Of a stretch of 64,000 nucleotides of DNA, positions 5,447 to 5,527 are shown piece by piece. The notes under the pieces are model-generated. The model saw only the letters and a list, made by a program, of their open reading frames with translations. It was not told the origin of the DNA and searched no databases. The DNA is from Kiloniella laminariae (GTDB taxonomy: Bacteria > Pseudomonadota > Alphaproteobacteria > Kiloniellales > Kiloniellaceae). The stretch is taken from NCBI RefSeq assembly GCF_027214005.1, contig NZ_JAPWGY010000001.1:744001-808000 (forward strand), read 5' to 3'. The translations under genes were made by a program, and so were the position numbers. The number at the start of each line of letters is the position of its first letter. Within the stretch, counting starts at the first letter, position 1.

Positions 5447-5527
5447 ATGCCAAGTCCCTGCGGGCTTGGTGTCATTTTTTTAAAAGCCAGGCTCGTTATC
5501 GATGTTTTTATGGAGACACGAAGATGA
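5447..5527 (+). CDS. Candidate 26-codon leader peptide of tpl
   Basis: An ATG at 5447 has AAGGG five bases upstream. The frame runs 26 codons and stops at a TGA (5525-5527) that overlaps the tpl start as ATGA. A strong hairpin with a T-run covers codons 2-12. The peptide begins MPSPCGLG and has three Phe codons and no Tyr or Trp. The layout (RBS, short ORF, terminator-like hairpin, coupled structural gene) resembles leader-peptide control as known for tnaC-tnaA, a related lyase. It is an inference from sequence layout; the ORF could be fortuitous. Confidence 0.45.
5450..5481 (+). terminator. Terminator-like hairpin in the tpl leader (candidate attenuator)
   Basis: CCAAGTCC (5450-5457) pairs with GGGCTTGG (5462-5469), eight pairs including one U-G, around the loop CTGC. 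Seven T follow at 5475-5481. No plus-strand gene lies upstream that would need a terminator, so attenuation of tpl is the simplest reading. Confidence 0.5.

Follow-up and report, generated by a model that had tools for sequence, protein, structure and literature searches.

A conserved two-hairpin RNA before tyrosine phenol-lyase genes: a candidate riboswitch-like attenuator

The tpl locus and its surroundings

The window, that is, the whole stretch of 64,000 nt analysed here, comes from Kiloniella laminariae and lies within G000:C11 in our numbering (its genome is in the same genus as G002). With 758.9 bits, the protein encoded by its tpl gene is above the TIGR02618 equivalog cut-off of 720.7, and it also matches tryptophanase models. 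A tpl gene with an identity of at least 86% is present in three of the nine Kiloniella genomes compared. The nearest long ORF upstream of the tpl leader (4561-5157) is on the minus strand; the first-pass annotation of this DNA had pointed out that no upstream plus-strand gene needs a terminator there. Just 3' of tpl is an inverted repeat, CCCCTCCGAAACA..TGTTTCGGAGGGG (13 bp; 6969-7000, plus strand), which has no T-run and at which the tpl transcript perhaps ends. Farther along the same strand, three adjoining similar ORFs of 395, 324 and 341 aa (10336-14106) have common stretches such as VREALALEGY and, judged by eye, look like duplicated periplasmic solute-binding proteins.

Elsewhere in the same genome there is a second, tryptophanase-like paralog, 46-47% identical to tpl, which passes the subfamily model PRK13238 and no equivalog cut-off. 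It has a leader block of its own, unrelated to that of tpl: about 52 nt (GGGCGCTGAGCGCGGCAGGCTGATGAGCAGCAGGCAACCGCGGCGCTT..GCCCC), almost invariant before the tryptophanase-like gene, located about 90 nt before the paralog start (L002; G000:C11:518982-519009, plus strand) and found likewise in L005-L010 and L154. Its core pattern, with up to 3 mismatches, occurs in eight of nine Kiloniella genomes, the ninth being 77% complete, and in none of 52 other genomes of the order. The block has no match in Rfam, and 3' of it a hairpin is formed around the Shine-Dalgarno sequence (AAGGGG..CCCCTT). Possibly, it is a second structured leader, for tryptophanase.

Where does transcription of tpl start? The palindrome upstream of the leader, which we take to be of the FNR/CRP type, is conserved in K. 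laminariae DSM 19542, whose tpl leader is identical to that of G002, and in G008. If class-II geometry is assumed for this palindrome and the hexamer TAGACT, which was not picked up by a promoter consensus scan, the sequence suggests that transcription probably starts around 5409 at an FNR-type activated promoter. This predicted start, if right, puts the RNA described below at the very start of the transcript. Of 27 leaders surveyed, a set without the last 5 copies, 16 have a box of the form TTGAY-N4-RTCAA that lies no more than 150 nt before the RNA and agrees in nine or more of its 10 positions; in 11 of these the box is perfect, and the other 11 leaders have none.

Table 1. Features of the tpl leader and gene, in window coordinates
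Feature	Position	Strand	Basis
Palindrome TTGACCGGGGTCAA, taken to be FNR/CRP-type; probable activator site of the tpl promoter	5360-5373	+	sequence, relatives
Candidate -10 hexamer TAGACT, separated from the palindrome by 23 nt; start predicted at about 5408-5410	5397-5402	+	
Conserved two-hairpin RNA element, candidate aptamer, 61 nt	5411-5471	+	model R1 match (49.3 bits), covariation
P1 stem-loop, CC-A-CUUG (5414-5420) with CAAGGG (5436-5441), variable apical hairpin between	5412-5441	+	
Junction (A/U)UGAAAU, almost invariant; shares its last A and U with the supposed ORF start	5442-5448	+	
26-codon ORF, most likely not a functional leader peptide	5447-5527	+	leader comparison
P2 hairpin GCCAAGTCC / GGGCTTGGT, loop 5458-5461 (hairpin of the first-pass annotation)	5449-5470	+	
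5' arm of the alternative helix (P2 3' strand and one loop base)	5461-5470	+	
T7 run of the first-pass annotation, in the loop of the alternative helix, not conserved	5475-5481	+	sequence, relatives
3' arm of the alternative helix, 10 bp with 5461-5470	5486-5495	+	0 of 500 shuffles as stable
U-rich interrupted stretch UUAUCGAUGUUUUU after the alternative helix, possible weak terminator tail	5496-5509	+	sequence
Shine-Dalgarno sequence of tpl, GGAG	5512-5515	+	sequence
tpl, tyrosine phenol-lyase, 459 aa	5524-6903	+	TIGR02618 equivalog match

A conserved RNA with two hairpins

When the three Kiloniella tpl leaders are aligned, the flanks have diverged, while a block TGGCCACTTG is nearly unchanged and is followed by CAAGGGTTGAAATGCCAAGTCC, a changed loop and GGGCTTGGT; this RNA block is nearly identical in all three. 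The general layout of the element is GGCCACUU, a variable hairpin, AAGGG(A/U)UGAAAUGCC, the hairpin P2 and GGU. Thus, P1 has a variable tip on an invariant CC-A-CU/AGGG. Folded as a single sequence, the leader in the window is not unusually stable (z -0.47). Not every copy has a regular P2: L111 lacks a proper 3' strand, and P2 is weak or short in L109, L147 and L148. L109 and L111 (the same as L024 and L012, respectively) are MAG copies in which only 8 and 17 nt separate the end of the motif from tpl, and such short leaders mean either that the platform differs or that the assembly is wrong; a coverage of 0.68 is given in the contig title of L012.

Fifteen of the 22 copies known at that stage, the window sequence among them, went into a covariance model, R1; L011, L012, L023, L024, L031, L035 and L038, which were near-duplicate, misaligned or had odd hairpins, were left out of this first model and included in the later counts. 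On the window's genome, R1 finds the element with an E-value of 5.2e-11. In an alignment of 32 copies, 88.0% of the cells hold standard pairs, compared with 32-59% if the structure is slid by 1-3 columns. Cells changed on both sides of a pair number 79 against a shuffled mean of 26.7, and the covariation score is 0.339 against 0.143, neither value being reached in any of 500 shuffles. Weaker measures give 11 pairs with two-sided changes against 9.1 (reached in 38 of 500 shuffles) and 34 further pair types against 29.1 (14 of 500). It is to be noted that these shuffles ignore relatedness, which inflates all the measures, so that the shuffle fractions are no probabilities, and that the alignment was fitted to the model and is biased towards the R1 structure. 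An unfitted MAFFT alignment, from which the structure had been drawn, gives the same picture, with 34 two-sided cells against 14.1 and none of 500 shuffles reaching that number. Four pairs of P1 and one of P2 are invariant and uninformative in this respect. Taken as comparative sequence evidence, these changes argue for an element that acts as RNA rather than as DNA.

Occurrence before tpl genes

Of the 591 tpl protein relatives that a collection search confirmed, the best 80 were kept, and 20 of these have the element before tpl, with P2 changed in step. By their titles, the carriers are Kiloniella, Maritalea, Shimia, Ruegeria, Paucibacter, Woeseiaceae, Kangiellaceae and other MAGs, including two labelled planctomycete; they thus span Alpha- and Gammaproteobacteria, Paucibacter and the two planctomycete-labelled MAGs, whose labels may be binning errors. 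Records of non-MAG strains with the element are those of Kiloniella laminariae, Maritalea porphyrae, Shimia sagamensis, Ruegeria lacuscaerulensis and Paucibacter oligotrophus. The element is absent from the remaining 60 of the 80 tpl loci, many of which are labelled Bacteroidota or Balneolales (best E 0.46), and a search of the whole genomes of three such loci (L025, L026 and L034) with R1 gave a best E of 0.087.

R1 was then scanned over 1570 genome entries, in which some genomes occur more than once: 25 genomes chosen because they carry tpl, 385 from the class to which the window belongs, 369 from that of G075, 345 from the family of G073, 250 from the order of G060 and 196 from that of G059. 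Stricter filters were used for the sets of more than 40 genomes, and weak relatives may be missed there. At E 1e-7 or better there are 32 matches, of which these sets contributed, in the same order, 22, 0, 0, 1, 4 and 5 new ones. All 32 are upstream of tpl, at a distance of 8-103 nt, and differ from the core GGCCACT...AGGGATGAAATGCC at one position or none. Fifteen of the copies had built the model, and ten (L144-L148 and L157-L161) came from scans blind to tpl. The tpl genes of strong copies in different bacterial classes are 73-77% identical to that of the window.

No match of this strength lies outside tpl in the 1570 entries. The next-best matches of the genome scans are those in G060:C105 (E 1.9e-5), G237 (4.5e-5) and G178 (9.6e-5). 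With cut-offs of E 0.01 for the set of 385, 0.001 for that of 369 and 1e-4 for those of 345, 250 and 196, 31 weaker matches (L113-L143) were examined as loci: none has a tpl gene within the locus, each has at least three differences from the core, and in 25 an open frame of at least 200 aa runs across the middle of the locus. They look like chance matches in genes. Nearest in look is L118 (G065, E 0.0065), which has GGCCACTTTG and CAAGGGATG and lacks the AAAT of the junction. The exact gapped motif pattern has no match in viral contigs. As far as scanned, and for strong copies only, the sequences indicate that this RNA is found only before tpl.

A predicted alternative helix and candidate platforms

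The first-pass annotation had proposed that an 8-bp hairpin and a run of seven T in the tpl leader form an attenuator. Both are in the sequence, and comparison with relatives has separated their fates: the hairpin is kept, as P2 of the larger RNA, while the T-run is weaker in K. laminariae DSM 19542 and absent in G008. A conserved intrinsic terminator made of P2 and T7 (5449-5481) is rejected, since its T-run is not kept. In a terminator scan, the hairpin (5447-5472) is one of nine terminator-like sites on both strands of 4 kb, where shuffles lead one to expect 3.9. It is as half of a conserved RNA, and not as a terminator, that the hairpin at 5449-5470 exceeds chance.

Does the 3' strand of P2 have another partner? 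In the window it can form the alternative helix of Table 1, and no dinucleotide shuffle out of 500 is as stable. This helix was tested in 27 leaders, of which 26 were testable, L109 being too short; the test supersedes an earlier one on 21 leaders with mononucleotide shuffles. In 17 of the 26 loci the helix is significant (no more than 25 of 500 dinucleotide shuffles reach its stability), and the second partner lies 11-43 nt further downstream; nine fail. In 28 of 31 loci the strand pairs better with its own leader than with foreign leaders on average (mean -13.7 against -9.7 kcal/mol; Wilcoxon p 5e-7, which is optimistic because the loci are related), and the reversed strand, used as a control, has little preference (-10.2 own, -9.5 foreign). 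For the 3' strand of P1, alternative pairing with its own leader (mean -7.9) scarcely exceeds that with foreign leaders (mean -7.6), and it is rejected as a general feature. Folds of the window leader with P2 and with the alternative helix have -25.5 and -25.1 kcal/mol, respectively, a gap of 0.4 kcal/mol; the two folds are within 3 kcal/mol in 17 of 27 loci and further apart in ten.

What follows the alternative helix differs among copies. A U-rich tail (at least 7 U in 12) is found in eight of 31 loci and missing in 23; on average there are 4.6 U, compared with 3.3 for the background. Those with a tail include the window and K. laminariae DSM 19542, the U stretch being interrupted in both, and the alternative loops of the eight loci, 15-35 nt, are long for an intrinsic terminator. 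Strong pairing with the Shine-Dalgarno region, matched by no more than 8 of 200 shuffles, is seen in six of 30 leaders: L099 from Shimia, L144 from the family of Ruegeria, and L102, L157, L160 and L161 from a Woeseiaceae MAG or its order. Own pairing with this region is better in 21 of the 30 (p 0.013). The tpl leaders thus appear to combine a constant aptamer with a variable platform. Platform variation around a constant aptamer is common in riboswitches.

What might the tpl leader sense?

One mark of a riboswitch is that the 5' leader of a metabolic gene contains a structured RNA that is conserved, and this is what is found, with all 32 strong copies before tpl and with covariation. We regard it as fairly likely, from the sequence comparisons, that the tpl leader is a riboswitch-like attenuator, whatever its ligand may be. 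Because the RNA is tied to one gene, its ligand should be particular to tpl, with tyrosine as the first choice and phenol as the second. Thus, the 61-nt RNA would be an aptamer for a small molecule of the tpl reaction, most likely the substrate L-tyrosine; for tyrosine itself, which rests on pathway logic with one associated gene, the chances seem about even. Ligand binding would stabilise P1 and P2 and withhold the 3' strand of P2 from its downstream partner. In leaders with a U-run after this partner, the alternative helix would act as a terminator, and binding would therefore turn tpl on; such a sign of control, aptamer formation giving readthrough, is suggested only where a terminator is plausible. 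Control seems instead to be exerted at the ribosome binding site in Shimia, the Ruegeria relative and the four copies from the Woeseiaceae order, and some of these leaders could have the opposite sign. The whole picture, a natural class of L-tyrosine riboswitches in which an aptamer of about 60 nt with two hairpins travels with tpl between bacterial classes and is joined to terminator-like or ribosome-site platforms, is one that we would believe and doubt in equal measure.

A compact RNA tied to one enzyme of known substrate, product and cofactor leaves a short list of ligands, and the claim is testable, as non-MAG strains carry the element. TPL is used in the production of L-DOPA, where a sensor of 60 nt for tyrosine or phenol, if true, would be useful.

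The same riboswitch may recognize another ligand, such as phenol, which is a toxic product, pyridoxal phosphate, ammonium or pyruvate, and may even turn tpl off, a possibility that overlaps with the explanation above and that we consider rather unlikely. That tpl is the sole gene associated among strong matches fits this possibility as well, and the platforms complementary to the Shine-Dalgarno sequence in six of 30 leaders could make an OFF switch; against it, one would look for sensors of pyridoxal phosphate, ammonium or pyruvate at further genes too, and there is none at E 1e-7 or better in the 1570 entries. Somewhat less likely still is that the conserved leader RNA is bound by a protein, such as an RNA-binding attenuation protein, and not by a metabolite. 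Proteins can bind small leaders of two hairpins that have invariant bases, and the comparative data would fit equally; the spread across bacterial classes, however, would need a shared partner protein, and the invariant bases sit in the bulge of P1 and the junction, as in aptamers.

How about a leader peptide, the central claim of the first-pass annotation? Ribosomes translating the 26-codon ORF would then respond to a signal and govern the hairpin and its T7, or the ATGA overlap would couple the ORF to tpl. All that was read from the sequence is there: an ATG at 5447 and a TGA at 5525-5527, AAGGG upstream at 5437-5441, a start 77 bp before tpl, a stop that overlaps the tpl start (5524) as ATGA, and a peptide with no Tyr. 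K. laminariae DSM 19542 retains 26 codons and the identical ATGA overlap, and 25 of the 27 copies whose ORFs were counted, a set without the last 5 copies, have the AUG. However, this AUG belongs to the conserved RNA motif GAAAUGCC, and the AAGGG or its variant is paired within P1 in 32 of 32 copies. The AUG position is AAG or ACG in the other two copies, ORFs of 2, 3, 3, 6, 7 and 7 codons occur, and three copies that do have AUG stay open in frame into tpl. Even in K. laminariae DSM 19542, indels shift most of the peptide after residue 9 into another frame, and in G008 the ORF stops after 12 codons; the residues common to the ORF peptides are those encoded by the RNA motif itself. By our own estimate, about one in ten such stretches would be open and end in ATGA, so that the ORF need not exceed chance. 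tnaC-type attenuation goes with a conserved leader ORF that has a conserved sensing residue or stall sequence, and the 27 copies have none. The leader peptide is rejected on this poor conservation, and attenuation through it is quite improbable; of the first-pass view, what stands is a tpl leader that looks like a regulatory attenuator with a predicted start site upstream, and what falls is the peptide. A DNA element such as an operator, or chance conservation with no RNA function, is hardly credible, for although P2 is also palindromic in DNA and the upstream FNR-like sites mark the region as promoter-proximal, the two-sided pair changes, the variable hairpin lengths and the alternative helix point to RNA.

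Comparison with known RNAs and regulators

Is the element a known RNA? Rfam release 15, searched with the whole window at gathering thresholds, has no match at the element; the same search gives a Cobalamin riboswitch (RF00174, 102.3 bits) at 53239-53455 on the minus strand. At E up to 10 on 5300-5600, two scores overlap the element, the rpsB sRNA (14.8 bits against a gathering threshold of 40; E 0.93) and snoR9 (10.3 bits against 90; E 4.9), and both look like chance. Nine loci, seven of them with the element, searched at E up to 5, and eight loci, six with the element, searched at E up to 1, gave no match at the element either. A known Rfam family is rejected, as no search gives more at the element than these two chance-level scores. 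T-box leaders, which consist of a T-box domain and a specifier loop and form an Rfam family, gave no match in these Rfam searches. Few natural amino-acid riboswitches are known (lysine, glycine, glutamine). The literature search, which did not extend to a survey of 224 motifs and to preprints, found among the papers listed neither a natural tyrosine riboswitch nor tpl in connection with a riboswitch or RNA motif; it is conceivable that the motif is described in that survey while absent from Rfam, and priority is not proven.

A riboswitch-like attenuator at tpl would have precedents among amino-acid riboswitches at catabolic genes, such as the glycine riboswitch before gcv. Like these, the tpl leader has a structured RNA before an enzyme that degrades the presumed ligand and, in part of the copies, an alternative helix with a terminator-like tail. 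Unlike them, it has no Rfam match, its core is a small one of two hairpins and its ligand is presumed only. In enterobacteria, tpl is controlled by TyrR, a protein at DNA operators; the target gene and, presumably, tyrosine as the signal are shared, whereas here it is a leader RNA that would act. Tryptophanase operons are controlled by the leader peptide tnaC, and the likeness is in the leader control of a homologous enzyme family, as the matches of the tpl protein to tryptophanase models indicate, while at tpl an RNA fold is conserved and no peptide is. According to PMC8632094, the uORFC-13-1 motif precedes aroF and adjoins an apparent terminator; it resembles the tpl element in both respects, as a motif of an aromatic amino acid gene and as one beside an apparent terminator. 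It differs in being, by its name, an upstream-ORF candidate at a biosynthetic gene, whereas tpl is a catabolic gene whose leader has no conserved ORF.
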